Source: Flavobacteriales bacterium
Lineage (GTDB): Bacteria; Bacteroidota; Bacteroidia; Flavobacteriales_D; CAJJDF01
DNA: 40,470 nt
Direction: 5' to 3'
Assembly (NCBI GenBank): GCA_020630395.1
Contig: JAHDBM010000003.1
Location: 1 to 40,470 of the forward strand
Shown: positions 4,257 through 27,510 of the stretch, piece by piece
Position numbering within the stretch: the first letter of the stretch is position 1
Layout: each line of letters starts with the position of its first letter
Position numbers and translations under genes: made by a program
The notes under the pieces: model-generated
The model's database searches: none
Seen by the model: only the letters and a program-made list of their open reading frames with translations
Told to the model about the DNA's origin: nothing

Positions 4257-5921
4257 TTAATACCCCAATTTAAATTCTATTCTTCTATTTTCTAAATGCA
4301 TGGCATCAGAACATTGAACACCATTACCACATTTATTAAGTAATTTAGTCTCTCCCATACCTTTGTATCGTATTTTATCGCTAGGAATACCTTGTTTAAC
4401 TAAATAATCTCTTGTAGATAAAGCTCTTCTTTCTGATAATTTTAAATTATAAGCATTAGAAGATCTAGAATCAGTATGAGCTTCTAAATAGACAAATTTA
4501 GCATCTATTGCTCTAAAATATTCTACTATAAAATCTAATTTACGAGCTGAGTAAGGAAATATTTCAGCTGAATTTAGTGCGAAATGAATATTTTTTAAGC
4601 GAACATCTACAGTTCTATCTTTTTCATTTCTCACAATTTTCATTTCACTATTATTAAGCGTATCAGTTGATCGCTCAAAAGAAAAAACACCAATTTCATC
4701 ATCTGGCAATTTAGCATATTCAGTTGGCATATTAACTTGAAACGTTTCTTCTACTAAATCTAACGTTAAATTTTTATCGAGATCAAAAGATGTATCAATT
4801 CCATTTTTACTAAAAAATAGCTTATACTTTTCCCCTCTTTTTAATCCATAAAAACTAGCCACTCCATCATCCTTTGTAGTCTTTTCATAAACAATATTAC
4901 CTTTACCATCCTTTAGGATAATACTAGCACTATCAATAGATTCTCCATATTGATTTATAAAATTCACCAACAATGTATATTTTTTTGTAGTAATAATTCT
5001 ATCCATCTTAAATCGATAAATATCATCATTCTCAGGCATTACATTATTTCTATTACTAGTAAAATAACCTATATATTTACCAGATGAGTCTATGAAACAG
5101 AAACCGAAATCATCATTATCTGAATTAATATCCCTTGGCATTGGTTCTGGATCTGATGTTAGCACATCATATTCTGAGATATAATAAATATCTTGATCTC
5201 CATCCTTATTGTCTGACATTTTATTAGAAGAGAAAAATAGAATCGTATCTTTAACATAAGGAAATAATTCCTCTCCTGATGTATTTATTCTTCTGCCAAG
5301 ATTAACGGGTTCTAACCAACTTCCATCTTTTAATTTTTGAGAATAAAAAATATCACTTCCCCCCTTACCTCCTCTTCTAGTTGACGCAAAATATAATCTT
5401 TTAGTAATGTTAGAGTATGTTGCATGCCCGATTGAAAATGCTGGATCGTTATATGGAAATTCTTTTATGTTGAATATTTCACCATCAGCAAAATCAGCTT
5501 CTACTAATCTTAGTCTATTAACTTCTAATCCTTCTTCTTTTTTAGCATCTCTATATGCACTCTTATTAAATGCGTTTAAAGTAAGGAAAATTTTACCATT
5601 CTCTTTATCAATAAAAGCAGGACCTTCGTGATAATGGCTTGTACCTTTAATTTTATCAGATAAGGATTCGGCACTTTTTTGTGTTTTTCCAGAATTCGCA
5701 TCAACTTTAGAAATCCTATGAAAATCATAATACTTACTTAACCTGTGATAAAACCTCTTGTTTCTATAAAAGTATAGGTACCCACCACTAAAATCTGCTG
5801 AAATTTCAGATAGACTAGTATTCATCTCTAATTTTATAACGGCTACTGAATCTTGAACTTGAGCAGATATAAAAAAAGAAAAAAGTGTAGTTAAACACAG
5901 TAATATATGCTTAACTATCAT
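4257..5921 (-). CDS. OmpA-family protein with PD40 propeller repeats, partner of a PorP/SprF barrel
   Basis: A 554-residue exported protein with a signal peptide ending near FFISAQ. After it come PD40/WD40-like beta-propeller repeats (about 60-300, with YFASTRRGGKGGSDIFYS and ILFFSSNK), a CNA-B/carboxypeptidase-regulatory-like domain (about 315-385), and a C-terminal OmpA domain (about 440-554, with HTDSRSSNAYNLKLSERRA) that should bind peptidoglycan. It is last in a three-gene operon and its ATG overlaps the PorP stop by 4 bases (ATGA). This resembles the SprF-linked OmpA proteins of gliding Bacteroidota, thought to anchor a T9SS surface component to the cell wall. It lacks the N-terminal TPR of PorE. 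Confidence 0.88.
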   Translation of the reverse strand: MIVKHILLCLTTLFSFFISAQVQDSVAVIKLEMNTSLSEISADFSGGYLYFYRNKRFYHRLSKYYDFHRISKVDANSGKTQKSAESLSDKIKGTSHYHEGPAFIDKENGKIFLTLNAFNKSAYRDAKKEEGLEVNRLRLVEADFADGEIFNIKEFPYNDPAFSIGHATYSNITKRLYFASTRRGGKGGSDIFYSQKLKDGSWLEPVNLGRRINTSGEELFPYVKDTILFFSSNKMSDNKDGDQDIYYISEYDVLTSDPEPMPRDINSDNDDFGFCFIDSSGKYIGYFTSNRNNVMPENDDIYRFKMDRIITTKKYTLLVNFINQYGESIDSASIILKDGKGNIVYEKTTKDDGVASFYGLKRGEKYKLFFSKNGIDTSFDLDKNLTLDLVEETFQVNMPTEYAKLPDDEIGVFSFERSTDTLNNSEMKIVRNEKDRTVDVRLKNIHFALNSAEIFPYSARKLDFIVEYFRAIDAKFVYLEAHTDSRSSNAYNLKLSERRALSTRDYLVKQGIPSDKIRYKGMGETKLLNKCGNGVQCSDAMHLENRRIEFKLGY

Positions 5922-6952
5922 TTAACTTTTAATGTTTTGGGTGATGCTACAGGATAATCATTGAATAAGCCACTGTAGGCCAATGAAATTTCGAAACCTC
6001 CTCTATATCTTGAGGCTGCTACTAAAGGTGAAATATTGATGTCATAGCTTACACCTATTGAATAGGCTCCGTGCAATAACATTTTCGTCATTATAACAAC
6101 TGCATCTCCATATCGGTAAAAGCCACCTAAATACAAATTAAAATTCCTGTAATATCCAGTGTATTTTGATACCATTCCAAAATCTTTTCTTATTAAAAAT
6201 CCTGCATTAATTTCTCTAGCTGTTCTTTGCATAGATCCAAAACCACTAATTACTGCTCCCCAATTATCAGATCTTGGAAAATTAAATTCTTTATTGGCAT
6301 GCACAACAAATTTATACGGGATATTATCATTAATATCTATGATCCCTACTTTAGGCTGTGTTAAATGAAAAGCAGAAACTCCAATTTCTAACGGATGCCC
6401 ATTAATGTCAAAATTTCTAAATAATACACCAGCTGATAAATCAAATGCTTTTTTACTTAAACCTGCGAATGATTCTCCTGAACTAGAAGTTTGATCAAAC
6501 TCTACTCCATCCCATTGGGTACCCCATAATAATCCCAAGTAATTTGCGGAAATATCCATATAACTTGCCCCAACACCTAACGTGATATCTGAAGAACTAT
6601 TTATATATATGGTTTGTGAAAGGTTTAAATCAACTCGTGTCGTTTTGGTTTTTGATGAACCTGCTATGTCTTGAAAAACATTTAATCCTATGCCTGTAGA
6701 TTTTAGTCCTAAATTATTTTTTAAAATTGTACAATCAAAAGATCCTGCATAGGTCTTATATGAATTTTTTATTATTGCCCATTGCTCTTTAAAATTTAAT
6801 ATGGCTCTATAGTCTCCACTATACATACCCGCATTTGCTGGGTTTAATAACATTGGAGCTTCATTAAATTGTGAAAAATGAATATCCTGAGCTTTGGTTG
6901 TATTAAAAGAAACAACCAGAAGAATAACAAATATGTATTTAAAGCCTTTCAT
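5918..6952 (-). CDS. PorP/SprF family type IX secretion outer-membrane barrel
   Basis: A 344-residue predicted beta-barrel with a signal peptide cut near TTKAQ. The mature start DIHFSQFNEAPMLLNPANAG is the hallmark of the PorP/SprF family. In Flavobacterium johnsoniae SprF is needed for secretion or attachment of the type B sorted adhesin SprB; PorP of Porphyromonas is a T9SS component. Here the barrel follows directly after a gene for a type B sorted protein (stop and start share one base, TAATG) and overlaps the OmpA gene by 4 bases. It is therefore most likely a dedicated SprF-like partner for the protein at 6952-8208 rather than the core PorP. Confidence 0.92.
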   Translation of the reverse strand: MKGFKYIFVILLVVSFNTTKAQDIHFSQFNEAPMLLNPANAGMYSGDYRAILNFKEQWAIIKNSYKTYAGSFDCTILKNNLGLKSTGIGLNVFQDIAGSSKTKTTRVDLNLSQTIYINSSSDITLGVGASYMDISANYLGLLWGTQWDGVEFDQTSSSGESFAGLSKKAFDLSAGVLFRNFDINGHPLEIGVSAFHLTQPKVGIIDINDNIPYKFVVHANKEFNFPRSDNWGAVISGFGSMQRTAREINAGFLIRKDFGMVSKYTGYYRNFNLYLGGFYRYGDAVVIMTKMLLHGAYSIGVSYDINISPLVAASRYRGGFEISLAYSGLFNDYPVASPKTLKVK

Positions 6953-8208
6953 TATCTTACTAGAGTTATATCGCCACTTTGCGTTAACGTTTCATTAGTG
7001 CTTAATTCAGCATTTAAATAATAGACATAAACTCCAGGTTGAGCTTTTTTACTCCTAAATGTTCCATCCCAACCTATGTTAACGTCTTTTGTTTCAAAAA
7101 CCTTTTCTCCCCACCTATTGTAAACTATAAAAGTTAGTTCTTCTACTTCTGCTCCTAGAACATATAATATATCATTTAATCCGTCTCCGTTTGGAGAAAA
7201 TATTTGAGGAACTCTTGCAGTAACTTTATCTTTTACAGCTAAAGCATATACATCATTTCCGAAATTTGAAATATTTCCTAACATGAATCTTTCTGGGTTT
7301 CCTATATTAAATAGTCCATTGGTAAAATTAACAGCATGTGGCATAGCATCCCATTGCGGCACAGGATTATCCCAAACTGATAGTGTATTGAATTCGTAGG
7401 GTAAGATTTCATCTGATCCAAAGTAAAAAATCTTGGATTGCACTTCATTGGTTCCATGAAACCTAGCTATATGGTGATAAAAACGATCATTAACACCAAA
7501 CATATTATTAGAAAGTAAATTTCGAGCGAATGGTCCAGTTGATCCAGTAGAAGAAGTTCCAGTAAAGTCAACCTCAGGGTCAATAGCTGCAAGACGAACG
7601 GCATAAACTGAACTATCACTAGTAGATGGAGTAAGTTCTACCGCTCTATATGCATTTGTTAAATCAAAATCACCAACTGGAAACATATAATTGCCATTAA
7701 CATTAGTGCTTCTTGCTAAATATCCTCCAATTGAATCTCCTGAAACATACCCTCCATTCCATAATATGGAGTTTTGATTAGGGTTTGTAACATGCATCAC
7801 ATTTTGATGTAATTGCAATTCACTATTTGTTAAATCTAAAATTCTAGAGACATTAGCGTCTATAAACATTTCTTTAACAGATATATTATACAAGTTTAAT
7901 TGTGAAAAGTTAGTTATATCGCTCCCCATAATTTTTTGATTAGCTCCTGTCATAGAAACTATGCCAGGACTATTATTCAAAAAAACAGAAAAACCAGAAT
8001 TGTTTATCCAATCTCTATCTAACTCAACCTCTCCTGAATTATCCATTACTCCAGAGTTACTGTGGACTATATCTCCATCAACATGTAATAAACTACCAGC
8101 TTCCATATGTACCAACATATTATCATTAGTCCATAATGCGGTTTGGCATATTGCACTTAAATTAATTGTGATAAACACCAAAAATAATATGTAATTATTT
8201 TTTTTCAT
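6952..8208 (-). CDS. Secreted surface protein with type B T9SS sorting domain
   Basis: A 418-residue protein with a signal peptide (MKKNNYILFLVFITINLSAICQ). The middle part (about 30-320) has no domain I recognise but is rich in beta-prone, Asn/Ser/Gly segments. The last 85 or so residues form a gliding-motility-associated C-terminal domain: IFSPNGDGLNDILYVLG, YNRWGEKVFETKD, GWDGTFRSKKAQPGVYVY. This type B signal directs export by the T9SS. It is the first gene of the operon with its PorP/SprF and OmpA partners. At about 420 residues it is small for this class of cargo. A weak -7-like TAGCTTTT lies 7 bases before the ATG. Confidence 0.9.
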   Translation of the reverse strand: MKKNNYILFLVFITINLSAICQTALWTNDNMLVHMEAGSLLHVDGDIVHSNSGVMDNSGEVELDRDWINNSGFSVFLNNSPGIVSMTGANQKIMGSDITNFSQLNLYNISVKEMFIDANVSRILDLTNSELQLHQNVMHVTNPNQNSILWNGGYVSGDSIGGYLARSTNVNGNYMFPVGDFDLTNAYRAVELTPSTSDSSVYAVRLAAIDPEVDFTGTSSTGSTGPFARNLLSNNMFGVNDRFYHHIARFHGTNEVQSKIFYFGSDEILPYEFNTLSVWDNPVPQWDAMPHAVNFTNGLFNIGNPERFMLGNISNFGNDVYALAVKDKVTARVPQIFSPNGDGLNDILYVLGAEVEELTFIVYNRWGEKVFETKDVNIGWDGTFRSKKAQPGVYVYYLNAELSTNETLTQSGDITLVR

Positions 8209-8265
8209 TGAGGCTAAAAGCTACTTTTTATACGTATTATATACAATAAGTTACATTATTAATAC

Positions 8266-9447
8266 TTAATTCGCAATATTTTCGATAACCATTGCTGAGG
8301 CTCCACCTCCTCCATTACAAATTCCAGCAGCTCCAATTTTACCATTATTCTGCTTTAAAACGTTTATTAATGTAACGATTATTCTAGAACCAGAATTACC
8401 AAGTGGATGCCCTAAAGCTACTGCCCCTCCATTAACATCTACTTTTGTTGAATCTAATCCTAATTTCTCGATATTAGCCAAACCAACTACAGAGAAAGCT
8501 TGGTTTAATTCCCAGTAATCAACATCTTCTGTTTTTATATTTGCTTTTTTAAGTGCTATTGGCAATGCTTTAGATGGTGCAGTAGTAAACCATTCTGGCT
8601 CTTGAGCAGCATCAGCATAACTGATTACTTTAGCAATTGGTTTTAAACCTAGCTCCTCTACTTTTTCCTTACTTGCTATGATTAGTGCTGAAGCACCATC
8701 ATTAAGCGTAGAGGCATTAGCAGCCGTTACCGTACCATCTTTTTGAAAGACAGGTCTTAAATTAGGTATCTTTTCTAGTTTAACTTTTTTATACTCTTCA
8801 TCCTCATTAATTACAATAGGGTCGCCTTTTCTTTGGGGTACAGAAACAGGAACAACTTCATCAGCAAACTTACCTGCTTCCCATGCTTTTGCAGCTCTAT
8901 TATATGATTCTATAGCAAATTCATCTTGATCTTCTCTCGAAATACCACACTCACTAGCGCACAATTCAGCTGCATTACCCATATGGTAATTATTGTAAAC
9001 ATCAGTAAGTCCATCTTTAACCATACCATCAGTAAACTTAACATCTCCTAATTTATACCCATTTCTAAGGTTCGCATAATGAGGTACAGCACTCATATTT
9101 TCCATTCCACCAACAACAACTATATCATTATCTCCTGCTAAAATAGATTGAGCTCCTAATGAAATAGATTTCATACCTGAAGCACAAACTTTATTAACCG
9201 TAGTGGCTGGTACATCTTTACTAATTCCAGCAAACATGGATGCTTGTCGAGCAGGTGCCTGACCTAATCCGGCTTGCAATACATTACCCATAAAAACTTC
9301 ATCAACTTGATCGGCTGAAATGCCTGCTTTTTCAATTGCACCTTTAATGGCTACTGAACCTAATTGTGTAGCTGAAACAGTTGACAAAACTCCTCCAAAG
9401 CTACCCATTGGAGTTCTTACAGCTGACAGTATGTATACTTCTTTCAT
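8266..9447 (-). CDS. Acetyl-CoA C-acetyltransferase (thiolase)
   Basis: A 393-residue thiolase that condenses two acetyl-CoA or cleaves acetoacetyl-CoA or 3-ketoacyl-CoA. The catalytic residues are C88 in NKVCASGMKS, H347 in GHPLGNSGSR and C377 in CNGGGGAS, the complete triad. The reading frame is open up to 9510, but the start at 9447 (MKEVYILSAVRTPMGSFGG) matches the family; the extension would read through the neighbouring terminator hairpin. It is a single gene between two surface-protein operons and appears unrelated to them. AtoB/PhaA-type use is likely, but the specific pathway (fatty acid breakdown, ketone bodies or mevalonate) cannot be told from the context. Confidence 0.95.
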   Translation of the reverse strand: MKEVYILSAVRTPMGSFGGVLSTVSATQLGSVAIKGAIEKAGISADQVDEVFMGNVLQAGLGQAPARQASMFAGISKDVPATTVNKVCASGMKSISLGAQSILAGDNDIVVVGGMENMSAVPHYANLRNGYKLGDVKFTDGMVKDGLTDVYNNYHMGNAAELCASECGISREDQDEFAIESYNRAAKAWEAGKFADEVVPVSVPQRKGDPIVINEDEEYKKVKLEKIPNLRPVFQKDGTVTAANASTLNDGASALIIASKEKVEELGLKPIAKVISYADAAQEPEWFTTAPSKALPIALKKANIKTEDVDYWELNQAFSVVGLANIEKLGLDSTKVDVNGGAVALGHPLGNSGSRIIVTLINVLKQNNGKIGAAGICNGGGGASAMVIENIAN

Positions 9448-9508
9448 TCTATTGATAAATTTAATTAATGAATTTAGGAAATATAGAGCAGGTCTGAAAG
9501 TTATTAAC

Positions 9509-9542
9509 AAAAAAAAATGCTCTTGTTAATAACAAGAGCATT
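9509..9542 (-). terminator. Rho-independent terminator after the PorE-like gene
   Basis: A 12-bp perfect stem (9516-9527 with 9531-9542, core TGCTCTTGTT) closes a 3-base loop and is followed on the minus strand by nine T (plus-strand A at 9509-9517). It ends the PorP/OmpA operon before the thiolase gene. Confidence 0.92.
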
Positions 9543-9565
9543 ACAATCATTTATTTGTCAGATGA

Positions 9566-11917
9566 TTACTTATCAAAACTATTTGTACTAGAATTTTCAA
9601 CACCTTTAACCATTCCTACAATTCTAAACTCTGTCCTTCTGTTTGCTTGATGTTCCTCTTCAGTACATTTATAGCAAGATTCACATTTTTCGATTAAACG
9701 ATCCTCTCCGTAACCTTTACCAAATATTCTTTCATCAGAAATACCTTGTGATATAACATATCTCATAGAAGATTTTGCTCTTTTATCAGATAACCTACGG
9801 TTATAACTATCTTTTCCTCTACAATCGGTATGAGATCCTATCTCAATTTTCATGTTAGGGAAATTTTTCATACAAGCTACTAGCTTATCAAGCTCTGCAG
9901 CTGCATCTGGCCTAATGTTTGATTTATTAAAATCAAATAATATATCTCCAATTTTACATACTTCTACCACATCAACACCTGTTTTAATAGGAGTTAGATC
10001 AAGTGCCTTCATGAATTCATTAAGGTTAACGATTCCTGGTTTTGTAATTCTATATTTAAAATCAACTTCCTTTGGGAAATAACCTTCTTTTTCGAATTTA
10101 AAACTGTAATCTATCATTCCTCCAGGACAAGGAATACCGGTTAAAGGATCTTTAAATCCTCCTGAACCATCAGTAATAAAATCTTTTTCTTCACCAGTTG
10201 CATTATTAACAATAGAAACTTTTACGTTATCAATTGGTTTTGTAGTACCTTTTTCAGTTACAGTACCAATTAAGCCACACATGTTCTTCTTCATTCTAAC
10301 ATCTCCATCTAAAATACCATCCTTAGCTGCATCTTCAGTATTAAACGTAAATGGAGAAACCATTACAAAATTATCTTTTTCTCCAACTACTTTGTAATTA
10401 CCTTCTGGTATTCCCTCAATCACATAATTACCATCAGCATCAGTTAAAACCTCTTTAATAATCTCTCCTGTTTCTACATTAACCAACTTCATCTTTACAT
10501 CAGCTAACTTCTCTTCTGTTTTATCATCAATAGCTGAACCAGTTAATGTATATAATTTAGGCCCAAAAGGGTATAAAATTTTAACACTATAAATATCATC
10601 ATTACCAACAGCATCATCACCTGTTCTGTTAGATGATACGTATCCAAATGTTTCATCATCATTAACTATAAAGCCAAAATCATCATAATTTGTATTTAAA
10701 GGATACCCCATGTTCATTGGCTTCAAAAAAGTGCCATCTCCTTTAGGTTCAGCTCTAAACAAATCTAAACCACCTAAACCTACATGACCATCAGAAGCAA
10801 AATAAAGTATTCCGTTAGAACCAATATGAGGGAACATCTCTTTTCCTTCGGTATTAACAGTTTTTACATTTTTTGGTAAATCCCATGTACCATCTTTTTT
10901 CCTTCCACAAACCCATATATCAGACTCACCTTTATTCATATTAGCATTACCTTCAGCATATTTTGGCATATCAGAAACAAAGTAAAGTGTTTGTCCATCC
11001 TCAGAAACTGAAGCGTGACCTACTGAGTATTCTCCGTTTTTACTATTGTACTTAAAAGGCTTTAATTCTCCCCATTCACCACCTGAGCTTTTCTCTGCAA
11101 TGTAAAGCATTAAATTATTATGCCTTTTAGAAGATAATCCTTTCTTTTTATTGATGTAGTTACTTCTAGTTAAATACATTTCTTCTTTATCACCATTCTT
11201 AGCAAATGCAACTGGTCCTTCGTGATATTTAGATTTATAATCTTTATTGAAAGTTTCTACTTTTTCAACTGTTCCATCCTCATTAAGCTTGGCAGTGTAA
11301 ACATCTAAAAAGTGAGAACCATCCCACTGGAAATCTTTATTTAAAGCATTCATGTTCTTCCTCGAAGATGTAAACGTTAAAAATTTCTCTCCATTAACAG
11401 TATAAAATTGAGAACCAAAATCAGAGTCCTTTGTGTTTACGCCATTATCTAATAAAGCTAATTCATATCTATCTGCATTAACTTTTAACTCTTCAGCATA
11501 ATTAGGATTATCATGATGCATAACACCTCTAGAATCTTTCCCTCCAGACATCACATAGAATTTTTCCATTTGAACATTTGCTTCCTTATACTTCTCATTA
11601 CTTTTAAGCATCTGTCCATATTGGTAAATATCTTCAGAAGTAACTTTAGCCTCAGGAAAACTAGCTAATTTAGCATACCATAATTCAGCATTTTTAGAAT
11701 CTCCGATCAATCTGTAACATTCTGCCGTTCTCCTAACAGCATAATCGGTAGGATTTTTTTTCTTTGCTAGATCTCTATATAATTCAACAGCCTTAAAAAA
11801 AGCTAATTCATCATATAAACGATCAGCTACTTTTAATTTCATTTGCGAAATTCCTTGAAAACAAAACATTCCTAGTACAAAAACTAGCACTATTCTCTTT
11901 ATTGATTGTTTTAACAT
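9566..11917 (-). CDS. PorE-like OmpA-family protein (TPR, PD40, carboxypeptidase-regulatory, OmpA)
   Basis: A 783-residue exported protein. In order: signal peptide (to about ISQ, residue 25), TPR-like helices (about 28-120, FKAVELYRDLAKK), PD40 beta-propeller repeats (about 170-440, YFVSDMPKYAEG, LYFASDGHVGLGGLDLF), two carboxypeptidase-regulatory-like domains (about 450-650), and a C-terminal OmpA domain (about 665-775, FDFNKSNIRPDAAAELDKL, SHTDCRGKDSYNRRLSDKR). This order is that of PorE of Porphyromonas gingivalis, a T9SS-linked peptidoglycan-binding protein. PorE is a lipoprotein; here the leader LVFVLGMFC lacks a good lipobox, so normal signal peptidase I cleavage is more likely. It follows a PorP/SprF gene with a 51-base gap. 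Alternative: an SprF-associated paralogue rather than core PorE. Confidence 0.85.
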   Translation of the reverse strand: MLKQSIKRIVLVFVLGMFCFQGISQMKLKVADRLYDELAFFKAVELYRDLAKKKNPTDYAVRRTAECYRLIGDSKNAELWYAKLASFPEAKVTSEDIYQYGQMLKSNEKYKEANVQMEKFYVMSGGKDSRGVMHHDNPNYAEELKVNADRYELALLDNGVNTKDSDFGSQFYTVNGEKFLTFTSSRKNMNALNKDFQWDGSHFLDVYTAKLNEDGTVEKVETFNKDYKSKYHEGPVAFAKNGDKEEMYLTRSNYINKKKGLSSKRHNNLMLYIAEKSSGGEWGELKPFKYNSKNGEYSVGHASVSEDGQTLYFVSDMPKYAEGNANMNKGESDIWVCGRKKDGTWDLPKNVKTVNTEGKEMFPHIGSNGILYFASDGHVGLGGLDLFRAEPKGDGTFLKPMNMGYPLNTNYDDFGFIVNDDETFGYVSSNRTGDDAVGNDDIYSVKILYPFGPKLYTLTGSAIDDKTEEKLADVKMKLVNVETGEIIKEVLTDADGNYVIEGIPEGNYKVVGEKDNFVMVSPFTFNTEDAAKDGILDGDVRMKKNMCGLIGTVTEKGTTKPIDNVKVSIVNNATGEEKDFITDGSGGFKDPLTGIPCPGGMIDYSFKFEKEGYFPKEVDFKYRITKPGIVNLNEFMKALDLTPIKTGVDVVEVCKIGDILFDFNKSNIRPDAAAELDKLVACMKNFPNMKIEIGSHTDCRGKDSYNRRLSDKRAKSSMRYVISQGISDERIFGKGYGEDRLIEKCESCYKCTEEEHQANRRTEFRIVGMVKGVENSSTNSFDK

Positions 11918-11968
11918 TTTAATTTGATTTTCTCTTTTAATTTTTTATTTATCTAAGTCTTGAAACAA

Positions 11969-12913
11969 TTAAAATCTTCTAGGCGTTTTAAATCCTTTTC
12001 CTAAGAAATCTAAATCATAGTTTAACATGATTTCATGAGAACCTGTATTATATGATCCTAAATCAGAAACTGTGTAATCATAAGCATAACCAGCTCTAAA
12101 AACAGGGGAAAAATGATACATTATATTGGCTACAACAGCATCTCCAGCTCTATAACCTCCGCCTATCCATAACTTCTCATAAAATAAAAAGTTTAAATTA
12201 AAGTCCATTGAAATTGGTGCATCTTGTACAGCTTTCACTATGATACTTGGCACTAATTCTATTGTACTGCTTATATCAAATGTATGACCTGCTGTAAGGA
12301 AAAAATGTCTATTTTGCCTAGCTGGCTCTGGTCTTGTTACAAGATCTTCACCCTTAAGGGTATTTTGAAGCACTTTAGGTGCAGATAATCCTACATAACT
12401 CTTTTTACTATACCAATATGCTCCAATTCCAAAGTTTGGAAGAGGATCGTTTTGAATTGGTGTCGTGTATAATGGATCATTAGGATCGTTAACAATCAAT
12501 CCGCTAAAATTTGCAGTATATAAATCTAAACCTCCTTTTAATCCAAAAGCTAGAATACTATTATTTAAAGGTAATCTATATGCTACATCAGCATAAAAAG
12601 AAGTAGTTTGTGTTGGTCCAATTTTATCATAAATAGCTGAAAACCCTAACGCTATATTCTCTCTCTTTAATGGCGTATGTAATGTTAATGAACCTGTTTC
12701 TGGAGCTCCGTCAATGTTAACCCATTGTTTTCTTCCTAACATAGTTACACTTAACGCATCTCTACTCCCTGCAAAAGCTGGATTAATTGATAGAGGGTTA
12801 AACATGTACATACTGTACTGAGGGTCTTGCTGCGCATAAACTTCACTTACACTAAAGCATGCCCCAAAAAACACTAATAAAAATACTCGGGATAAAACAA
12901 TTTTCTTATTCAT
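11969..12913 (-). CDS. PorP/SprF family type IX secretion outer-membrane barrel (second copy)
   Basis: A predicted beta-barrel of 314 residues. The mature N-terminus QQDPQYSMYMFNPLSINPAF is diagnostic of the PorP/SprF family, followed by AGSRDALSVTMLGRKQWV. The frame is open to an ATG at 12943, but that codon lies inside the -7 promoter box. The start at 12913 (MNKKIVLSRV) gives a proper signal peptide and a leader of about 20 bases, so it is preferred. It is co-transcribed with the PorE-like gene. Unlike most SprF genes it has no type B cargo gene upstream; the only other type B protein in the window without a partner is at 24157-27510. It could equally be the core PorP. Confidence 0.9.
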   Translation of the reverse strand: MNKKIVLSRVFLLVFFGACFSVSEVYAQQDPQYSMYMFNPLSINPAFAGSRDALSVTMLGRKQWVNIDGAPETGSLTLHTPLKRENIALGFSAIYDKIGPTQTTSFYADVAYRLPLNNSILAFGLKGGLDLYTANFSGLIVNDPNDPLYTTPIQNDPLPNFGIGAYWYSKKSYVGLSAPKVLQNTLKGEDLVTRPEPARQNRHFFLTAGHTFDISSTIELVPSIIVKAVQDAPISMDFNLNFLFYEKLWIGGGYRAGDAVVANIMYHFSPVFRAGYAYDYTVSDLGSYNTGSHEIMLNYDLDFLGKGFKTPRRF

Positions 12914-12940
12914 TTCTTTCTGATTCAATTTCAAGATTTG

Positions 12941-12972
12941 CAAATATATATCTAAGTCTCGATTTAATCAAA
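12941..12972 (-). promoter_or_regulatory. Promoter of the PorP/PorE-like operon
   Basis: The minus strand reads TTTG (12972-12969), 20 bases, then TATATTTG (12948-12941), a full match to the Bacteroidota consensus. Transcription would start near 12936, about 23 bases before the ATG at 12913, which settles the choice of start codon for the PorP gene. Confidence 0.75.
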
Positions 12973-24156: not shown

Positions 24157-27100
24157 ATGTTGATTAGGTTTTTCTTTGTATTAGCAATTATGTTAAGTTG
24201 TGTTTCCGAATACACTTACTCTCAAGCATGTACAATTTCTGGTGGTGGTGGAACAATATCTGCTGGAACTTCTCAAACTTACTCATTGGATGCTGGTTGT
24301 AACCCCTGCAGAAATTGTAATTCTCCTAATTTTTGGTTTATTTCTTGGGGAGGAACGGGAAGTATAACTATTGGTGGAACTACCTATACTACTTCTCCTG
24401 TTTCTATTAATGGCAGCAGTAATCTTACTGTGCTCTATAATTTAGCTGGCAACTATACTATTAGTTGGGAATGGGGTAGTTCTACATGTAGTCCATCATG
24501 TCCTGGAGGTGGAGCAACATTTGGACCTACTGTAACCGTTAACTGTGCTACTCCTAGCGCATGTTGGAATGGAACATCCATTTGTGAATCAGCTGGTTTA
24601 CTCAATCTAAATACGTTATTGTGTGGAAGTGCAGCTACAGGAGGTACTTGGTCTGGAACTGGTGTTACAGGAAATAATTTTGATCCTACCGGAAGAGGAG
24701 GCCAAACCATTGCCATTACCTATTCAGTTGGAACAGCTCCTTGTGACGATAGTGAAACACATAATATTACGGTAGAAACCCCTGCAGATGCTTGTTGGAA
24801 TGGAACAACACTATGTGAAAACGATCCATCATTTGATTTAACTACTTTGCTTTGTGGAACAGCTACCTCAGGGGGTAGTTGGAGCGGAACTGGAATAACT
24901 GGAAATAATTTTAATCCTAATGGATTAGGTGGACAAACCATTGCAGTAACTTACTCTGTTGGTACAGCTCCATGTGATGATTCTGAAACTCATAATATTA
25001 TTGTTACTGAACAACCAAATTCTCCCAATGGTTCGGATAATTCATTTTCTTCCTGTATTACTCCATATTGTGTAGATTTAAATGCTGGTAGATCATGCAT
25101 TAGCGGGGTATTAAATTGGTATACAACTCCCACTCCAACTGCAGCAACTACAACCATTGCTAATCCCGCAAATGAATGTACTTCTGTAAATACAACATAC
25201 TACGGATTTTGTTATGATGCATCTCAAACAACTAATTGTCAATTTAGCGATTCATTAGAAACTATTATCACTATTACAACCAAGCCAGATCCATGTTGGA
25301 CATCATTTGGTACTATATGTGAAACAAACAATTTCTATGGCTTAAATTTTCAATTATGCGCCTCTTCAACAACTGGTGGTATTTGGAGTGGTCCTGGTGT
25401 AACAGGTAACAGCTTTAATCCTGTTGGATTAGGAGGACAAACTATCGCTTTAACTTACACAGTTGGAACTCCGCCTTGCGATACTCTTGAAACACATAAC
25501 ATTACTATTGTCAATACACCCTCTACTCCGACTGGAGGAAATTCTTCAATAACAAATTGTGGAATTGAATGTATAAATTTAAATCAAGGGCATACCTGTG
25601 CAACAGGAAACTTAAATTGGTATACAACTCCTAATCCTAACAGTGCTACTGTACCAGTAGCTTCAAGTAATAATATATGCCCTAACGCTAACATTACCTA
25701 TTATGGTTTTTGTTATGAAAATACCAATCCAAATAATTGTCAATTTAGTGATTCTATAGAAACTGTAATTACCATTTTACCCGAAAGTGATCCATGCTGG
25801 CTAGCACCTGATACTATTTGTGAGAATAATGGATTAATAAATTTATCTAGTCTACTATGTGCAACTGCTACTACTGGAGGTTCATGGAGTGGGCCTGGTA
25901 TTTTTGGTAGTAATTTTTCTCCTATTGGTAGAGCTGGTCAAAATGTTTACATAACTTACACTGTTGGAACACCACCTTGCGACACTTCATATACTGATAC
26001 AATAACAGTTTTACCTGTAACTGATGCTTGTTTCAATCCAGTATCTCCTCTTTGTGAAAGTGATCCTCCAATCAATCTTAATACCTGGCTTTGTGCATCT
26101 GCCACTTCTGGTGGAACTTGGAGCGGAACTGGTGTTACAGGTAATTCTTTTGATCCAACTGGTTTAGGTGGACAAATTGTAAATATTACTTATACTGTTG
26201 GTGTTTCTCCATGTGTATCTACTGAAACTCATCCTATTCAAGTATCTATTCAGCCAGATCCATGTTGGAATCCAATTGGCACTATATGTCAATCTGAAGC
26301 ACCAGTTAACTTAAATACATTATTATGTCCAACTGGTGTTAGTGGAGGCACATGGTCTGGCACAGGTGTTACAGGTAATACATTTGATCCTGCAGGGTTA
26401 GGAGGAAGTACAATTCCTATTACCTATACCGTAGGACCACCTCATTGTAATAATAGCGAAACACACAATTTCACAATAGCAAATAAACCAACAACTCCTG
26501 CTGGTGGAGACTATGACTTAACAATATGTGGTTCAGGATGTATTAATCTAAATCAAGGAAGAAGCTGTAGCCAAGGAAGTCTACAATGGTATAATATTAG
26601 TAATCCCACTTTAGCTACAGCACCAGTTGTAACCCCAACAAATATTTGTCCTAATTCAGATATTACTTATTATGGTTTTTGTGTTTCTTCTACTAATCCT
26701 ACAGATTGTCAATTTAGTGATTGGGTAGAAACTAGAGTCACGGTAATTCCTAAATCTGATCCATGCTGGAATTCGCCTGCAATAATATGTGATAACGGAG
26801 GATTAATAAATTTGAATGATTGGCTATGTGCTAGCTCTACACTTGGTGGAGAATGGTCTGGACAAGGAATTACTGGTAATACATTAGACCCTTTACTATT
26901 TGGAGATCAAGCTATATCAATAACCTACAAAGTAGGCACTTATCCTTGTGATACTTTTCAAACACAAGATGTTATTATATCAAGAAGCGACCCATCTTTT
27001 GAAACAAGTAATTTTTGTTTTGGAGAATATAATCAAGTAATGGTTACAGGAGTGCAAAGAGGTATTTTTACCTTACATAATGTAATTACTGGTAGTCCAA

Positions 27101-27510
27101 TAATTGATAACAATACTGGTGTAATATCCAATGCTTCTTTAAATGCTATATATACCATTCAATATAAAACCTACACCCCTTGTGTTGATAGTAGTAGTAT
27201 TGATGTTCGAGTTTTAGATTGTGATTCATTAGCTCCTATTTTATTTGTCCCTAATTCTTTTACTCCAGATAGTGATGGATTTAATGATAAATTTATACCA
27301 GTAGCTGAAAATCTAGAAGATTATACCCTATATATCTTTAATAGATGGGGACAATTATTATTTGAAACTAATCAACTTCATGAAGGTTGGGATGGAATGT
27401 ATAATGGAATGAAATGCCCTATTGATAGTTATGTGTGGCGTATTACATATAAAGAATTTAACAGTGCTATCATCACTTCTAAATTTGGACATGTTAATAT
27501 CATTCGATAA
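24157..27510 (+). CDS. Large modular Cys-rich surface protein with type B T9SS sorting domain
   Basis: A 1117-residue secreted protein with a signal peptide cut near YTYSQA. A Gly/Ser/Thr-rich head (about 23-135) is followed by seven A modules of about 77 residues, starting with the Cys of CWNG-like motifs at 136, 213, 380, 547, 625, 703 and 870. Each has GGTWSGTGVTGNNFDP-like, GLGGQ-like and ITYTVGTPPC-like blocks. After A2, A3 and A6 comes a B module of about 88 residues (CINLNQG, LNWYTTP, ITYYGFCY, NCQFSD). The pattern is A-AB-AB-A-A-AB-A. The last 85 or so residues are a type B sorting domain: VPNSFTPDSDGFNDKFIP, LYIFNRWGQLLFET, GWDGMYNGMKCPIDSYVW. Likely a T9SS-exported adhesin or coat protein; ligand unknown. 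No PorP/SprF gene is adjacent. Confidence 0.9.
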   Translation: MLIRFFFVLAIMLSCVSEYTYSQACTISGGGGTISAGTSQTYSLDAGCNPCRNCNSPNFWFISWGGTGSITIGGTTYTTSPVSINGSSNLTVLYNLAGNYTISWEWGSSTCSPSCPGGGATFGPTVTVNCATPSACWNGTSICESAGLLNLNTLLCGSAATGGTWSGTGVTGNNFDPTGRGGQTIAITYSVGTAPCDDSETHNITVETPADACWNGTTLCENDPSFDLTTLLCGTATSGGSWSGTGITGNNFNPNGLGGQTIAVTYSVGTAPCDDSETHNIIVTEQPNSPNGSDNSFSSCITPYCVDLNAGRSCISGVLNWYTTPTPTAATTTIANPANECTSVNTTYYGFCYDASQTTNCQFSDSLETIITITTKPDPCWTSFGTICETNNFYGLNFQLCASSTTGGIWSGPGVTGNSFNPVGLGGQTIALTYTVGTPPCDTLETHNITIVNTPSTPTGGNSSITNCGIECINLNQGHTCATGNLNWYTTPNPNSATVPVASSNNICPNANITYYGFCYENTNPNNCQFSDSIETVITILPESDPCWLAPDTICENNGLINLSSLLCATATTGGSWSGPGIFGSNFSPIGRAGQNVYITYTVGTPPCDTSYTDTITVLPVTDACFNPVSPLCESDPPINLNTWLCASATSGGTWSGTGVTGNSFDPTGLGGQIVNITYTVGVSPCVSTETHPIQVSIQPDPCWNPIGTICQSEAPVNLNTLLCPTGVSGGTWSGTGVTGNTFDPAGLGGSTIPITYTVGPPHCNNSETHNFTIANKPTTPAGGDYDLTICGSGCINLNQGRSCSQGSLQWYNISNPTLATAPVVTPTNICPNSDITYYGFCVSSTNPTDCQFSDWVETRVTVIPKSDPCWNSPAIICDNGGLINLNDWLCASSTLGGEWSGQGITGNTLDPLLFGDQAISITYKVGTYPCDTFQTQDVIISRSDPSFETSNFCFGEYNQVMVTGVQRGIFTLHNVITGSPIIDNNTGVISNASLNAIYTIQYKTYTPCVDSSSIDVRVLDCDSLAPILFVPNSFTPDSDGFNDKFIPVAENLEDYTLYIFNRWGQLLFETNQLHEGWDGMYNGMKCPIDSYVWRITYKEFNSAIITSKFGHVNIIR
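24562..26994 (+). repeat. Seven A and three B coding repeats inside the surface-protein gene
   Basis: In-frame repeats of about 231-234 bases (A) and about 265 bases (B). A units begin at 24562, 24793, 25294, 25795, 26029, 26263 and 26764. Units 2, 3 and 6 carry the B extension, giving a 501-base AB period three times. Units differ clearly in DNA sequence, so expansion is old rather than recent, although short identical blocks such as GGTGTTACAGGTAA recur. Confidence 0.85.

Follow-up and report, generated by a model that had tools for sequence, protein, structure and literature searches.

Proteins bearing a T9SS type B sorting domain are anchored through PorP/SprF (PMC9143113, PMC12635249). 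In F. johnsoniae, three such proteins, Fjoh_1123, Fjoh_1720 and Fjoh_4934, have orphan C-terminal domains (CTDs), in that no PorP/SprF gene is adjacent, and these three CTDs use one orphan shuttle, Fjoh_1677 (PMC12618676). The gliding adhesin SprB (PMC9143113) is a repetitive type B surface protein, while a string of Ig-like domains within a bacterial surface appendage is seen in the grappling hook protein of Aureispira, GhpA. Beyond T9SS, the Anabaena contractile injection system has a crown with fibre-like protrusions, which is formed by Cis19 (PMC8894136).

The gene considered here lies at positions 24157–27510 on the forward strand of a 40,470-nucleotide stretch of a Flavobacteriales genome (hereafter the window), and is an open reading frame with an ATG start and a product of 1117 aa. 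It had been predicted to encode a surface protein built from two cysteine-rich modules in the order A-AB-AB-A-A-AB-A and ending in a type B sorting domain, an arrangement which is borne out by module mapping, Cys counts and domain profiles. The protein is of a well-populated kind, common in Bacteroidota. What is unusual is its paired disulfide enrichment, the cysteine-stapled version being found nowhere else in the genomes searched.

Layout of the protein and its sorting domain

The protein opens with a probable Sec signal peptide (24157–24225), judged by eye from its basic start and hydrophobic core, followed by a Cys-rich N-terminal domain with seven Cys (24226–24549, aa about 24–131), which is a candidate distal tip. 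Ten beads then run in the order A-A-B-A-B-A-A-A-B-A, all on the forward strand: A1 (24550–24780), A2 (24781–25011), B1 (25012–25281), A3 (25282–25512), B2 (25513–25782), A4 (25783–26013), A5 (26017–26247), A6 (26251–26481), B3 (26482–26751) and A7 (26752–26982), the last of these being the most divergent A copy. Between this array and the sorting domain (27223–27510) lies what appears from its sequence to be a degenerate domain with three Cys (26983–27222, aa 943–1022). Both this domain and the N-terminal domain were absent from the original prediction. Searches of Pfam, NCBIfam and PHROGs with the whole protein returned the CTD and a sub-threshold Ig_7 match and nothing else. No module scores over a Pfam cut-off and no ligand-binding domain was recognised, such that the label ‘adhesin’ is one given by analogy.

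A search with the N-terminal domain finds one relative, a paralogue on contig C12 of this genome (12070–12441; 45% identity, E 1.5e-23), while 148 further genomes of the class yield none. The paralogue, at about 7000–12500 of that contig, combines the same N-terminal domain with Ig_7-type modules and is interrupted by a run of N, so an assembly gap may have divided what is a single long gene.

The sorting domain scores over the curated cut-offs of both TIGR04131 (E 1.5e-15, 57.1 bits against a cut-off of 35) and CHU_C, PF13585 (E 1.4e-14, 54.4 bits against 27), a type B signal which supports the predicted surface export. The same genome encodes the T9SS translocon SprA (TIGR04189, 2518.7 bits), together with 18 PorP/SprF-like matches and 63 type B CTDs over cut-off. 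A PorP-like gene adjoins 10 of the 60 CTD genes that were fetched. No PorP/SprF gene lies next to 24157–27510, which has a GH3 gene downstream and 11 kb between it and the closest PorP-like gene, and the 1117-aa protein is an orphan T9SS type B substrate. In a tree of 59 CTDs its sorting domain falls within a clade of 31 (support 98/98), none of whose members sits beside a PorP-like gene (Fisher p 2e-4, calculated on rows that are not independent). Given that type B proteins are anchored through PorP/SprF, and that the three F. johnsoniae orphans have a shuttle in common, the simplest inference by analogy is that the 31 members would also share one shuttle.

Some further T9SS genes are seen in this genome. 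On the reverse strand of the window, at 9566–12943, the gene with the genome's best PorP-like match (11969–12943; TIGR03519, E 4.3e-86) precedes a PorE-like gene of PD40/OmpA type. As no type B CTD gene adjoins the pair, the PorP-like gene is an orphan shuttle candidate, and other candidates lie on contigs C137, C128, C4, C117 and C12. A classic operon of type B substrate, PorP-like and OmpA (PorE-like) genes occupies 4257–8208, also on the reverse strand. Two SprA genes are present, on contigs C84 and C83, one of them cut at a contig start, so the genome possibly has two T9SS translocons.

The A and B modules and their cysteines

The seven A modules, each of 77 aa (starting at aa 132, 209, 376, 543, 621, 699 and 866) and each with exactly four Cys, share 44–69% pairwise protein identity; local alignment of A1 with A2–A7 gives scores of 211–312, where the highest of 500 shuffles is 76. 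Although no Pfam or NCBIfam family was found for these modules, a profile built from them has matches in 32 of 296 Bacteroidota genomes, in some cases within long proteins that also bear Ig_7 and CHU_C domains. The family has the core motif C...L...GG-W-SG-G...F-P...ITYT...C, and its members match Big_9, HYR and Bact_surface_Ig-like weakly. In other words, the A module, which the original prediction did not recognise, is a member of a widespread Bacteroidota Ig-like family that is as yet uncurated. The genome's closest A-type modules, in a two-Cys form, are encoded on contig C49 (1–1424), which begins inside their gene, and a PorP-like gene directly follows.

With respect to structure, AlphaFold2 models of all A copies, built like those of B on alignments of 4–7 rows, have a beta fold with the same strand pattern (pLDDT mostly 80–94). 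An A-A-B-A model is matched best in the PDB by proteins with Ig or cadherin domains in series, 81 chains having E <=1e-3. Matches of the A model by VIA-align, which include the S-layer Ig-like domains of SbsC and Sap, reach Z <=7.9, a middling level that common beta arrangements also reach by chance, such that an Ig-like beta-sandwich is the likely, yet unproved, fold of these predicted structures. Profiles of A1 and A2 by themselves find no credible PDB relative, and a broad A-family profile matches three stretches of Anabaena All3314/Cis19 (PDB 7b5h; E 1.7e-16 overall). A phage PKD-like protein also resembles the A model (BFVD, E 7e-5, 35% identity), and an AB relative is encoded in no phage record searched.

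The three B modules (aa 286–375, 453–542 and 776–865; 89–90 aa), with exactly six Cys apiece, are 43–57% identical in pairwise comparison, and B1 aligns with B2 and B3 at scores of 261 and 215, where the shuffle maximum is 78. The original prediction had left this module, too, without a known domain. All three, however, match Ig_7 (PF19081, ‘Ig-like domain, CHU_C associated’) over nearly its full length, with a best E of 5e-4; B3 spans profile positions 1–82 of 84 and is also recovered in an Ig_7 search of the genome (E 7.9e-4). The best score, 20.7 bits, is under the Ig_7 gathering cut-off of 27.3. Of 14 B-type modules, ten have an Ig_7 match, the best at E 1.2e-16, and a B profile search of the genome finds Cys-rich proteins elsewhere, one of which, on contig C112, is over the cut-off at 233.2 bits (E 2.5e-70). 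From the near full-length match, and from relatives in the same genome that pass the cut-off, B1, B2 and B3 are divergent Ig_7 domains by sequence. Their fold is assigned on this same basis since the modules are modelled poorly (pLDDT about 41–66). The contig C112 protein (17.7–22.5 kb; 1585 aa, 76 Cys, twelve Ig_7 stretches) is of the same Cys-rich style but has a type A sorting domain.

The distribution of the cysteines is informative as to how they may pair. In a set of 154 distinct A-type modules taken from other proteins, and counting those with a residue at the position, C2 is conserved in all 146 and C4 in 148 of 154, whereas none of 91 has C1 and none of 48 has C3. Both C1 and C3 are found in all seven A modules of the 1117-aa protein, and in no other module of this comparison, from which we infer a C1–C3 bond in addition to the C2–C4 bond of the family. 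In both AlphaFold2 models an isolated beta-bridge residue comes directly after C1 and another directly before C3. Were these two residues to bridge one another, as they presumably do, then the two Cys would face each other. Among B relatives, C3 and C5 co-occur with a phi of 0.86, and C2 and C4 with a phi of 1.0, the latter on very few modules outside the 1117-aa protein. This leaves C1 and C6, the plain Ig_7 pair, so that the probable bonds of B are C1–C6, C3–C5 and C2–C4. The earlier suggestion that the modules are disulfide-linked is thus supported by Cys columns that appear and vanish in pairs.

Distribution and age of the gene

In a genome of the same genus, the genes which flank this locus, GH3 and a Na+/H+ antiporter, are neighbours separated by about 190 bases, an interval that holds no surface gene, and the arrangement is the same in a second related genome. 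No full-length relative was found in 59 related genomes, where the best match is 45% over aa 306–772, and a whole-protein search of genome contigs also gave no relative. The gene has a GC content of 0.364, against 0.29–0.35 for the other genes of the window, and a GC3 of 0.154, which is within the native range. The higher GC therefore reflects amino-acid make-up, and a recent horizontal gain, considered on compositional grounds, was rejected because of this native GC3.

The module copies share 60–74% DNA identity, with third-codon-position identity of 38–59%, and are therefore old, making recent slippage unlikely. A recent change in copy number was accordingly rejected as unsupported. In the one strain covered there was likewise no evidence for the variation in copy number between strains that the original prediction had entertained. 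Taken together, the absence at the syntenic site in relatives, the native GC3 and the age of the copies mean that the gene is specific to its species among the genomes sampled, either through gain or through loss in the others.

Proposed role and comparison with known systems

The probable role of the protein is that of a T9SS-exported, surface-anchored stalk of Ig-like beads, stapled by disulfides and serving most likely in adhesion. The 1117-aa protein would cross the inner membrane via Sec, after which its C-terminal sorting domain would thread it through the SprA translocon, leaving it held on the outer surface and bound to a PorP/SprF-like shuttle. Since no PorP/SprF gene lies beside its own, this shuttle may be one that some 30 further orphan type B proteins also use. 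The A and B modules, as immunoglobulin-like beta-sandwich beads placed head to tail, would form an extended stalk that presents the Cys-rich N-terminal domain away from the cell. Adhesion is the most likely purpose, whether to surfaces, to particles or to cells. Within each bead the family's C2–C4 bond and the extra C1–C3 bond (A), or the Ig_7 C1–C6 bond together with C3–C5 and C2–C4 (B), would act as staples, such that the stalk, presumably rigid, would resist pulling and proteases. This is in keeping with the fibre or adhesin design first suggested for the protein, the adhesin part of it by analogy.

A repetitive type B surface protein could also be mobile, as SprB is: an SprF-like shuttle on the GldJ/K/N track would carry the stalk, and pulling on it would move the cell. 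Type B CTDs do send SprB and Fjoh_4750 to the gliding track, along with a subset of the orphan Fjoh_1123 (PMC12618676), and disulfide stapling would suit a stalk that is pulled. Such a role is nevertheless unlikely, given that SprB is far larger at 669 kDa (PMC9143113), that no SprF gene adjoins 24157–27510, and that foci with the orphan CTD were mostly static in the same F. johnsoniae study (PMC12618676).

Less probable again is a coat, in which Ig-bead proteins from the orphan family line up against one another as a surface layer or sheath, instead of serving as individual adhesins. That a single genome has 31 orphan type B CTDs in one clade could be taken in its favour, as could the matches of A to SbsC and Sap, but these matches have middling Z values and stand among hits to unrelated Ig-like proteins. 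Moreover, the orphan proteins differ widely in length, and a main coat protein would hardly be expected to be missing from a same-genus genome, as this gene is. A capture or contact filament against other cells, like GhpA, is very improbable. The structural matches do include GhpA fragments (9fly, E 2.8e-6; 9flw, E 5.1e-5; 9flp, Z 6.9 over 147 residues at 17% identity), but eukaryotic Ig and cadherin strings match as well or better, so the resemblance means ‘Ig-like beads’ and no more. It is one of fold alone, there being no GhpA chain in PDB sequence searches, and GhpA is far larger, its fragments extending beyond residue 5000.

A broader proposal can be put forward tentatively. In this, a single orphan PorP/SprF shuttle, or a small number of them, would sort all of the roughly 31 orphan type B proteins. 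The stalk would be an over-stapled member of this group (four-Cys A, six-Cys B), its extra disulfides having arisen as pairs in a single lineage and hardening it against force or proteolysis. The beads constitute a natural series (two- and four-Cys A; two-, four- and six-Cys B) with which one could directly measure how extra disulfides affect bead stability. The analysis also highlights a widespread Bacteroidota Ig-like module still without a Pfam entry, while the large, clean orphan clade allows the shared-shuttle idea, derived from three F. johnsoniae proteins, to be tested at scale.

Set against known systems, the A modules have the length, motifs and C2–C4 pair of their uncurated relatives, which occur in tandem arrays beside Ig_7 and CHU_C (for example in a 1823-aa protein on contig C106 of genome G016), but differ in the extra C1–C3 pair, seen in 0 of 154 distinct relatives. 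The B modules retain the W-Y and YY core motifs and the C1...C6 pair of Ig_7, from which they depart in having two extra Cys pairs and in scoring below its cut-off. All3314/Cis19 is a cyanobacterial, non-T9SS protein, whose matched residues, about 915–1258, may be in a part that its authors were unable to model. In export there is a parallel with the F. johnsoniae orphans, likewise type B CTDs that group together, of which there are three in that organism and 31 in one clade of the genome here.
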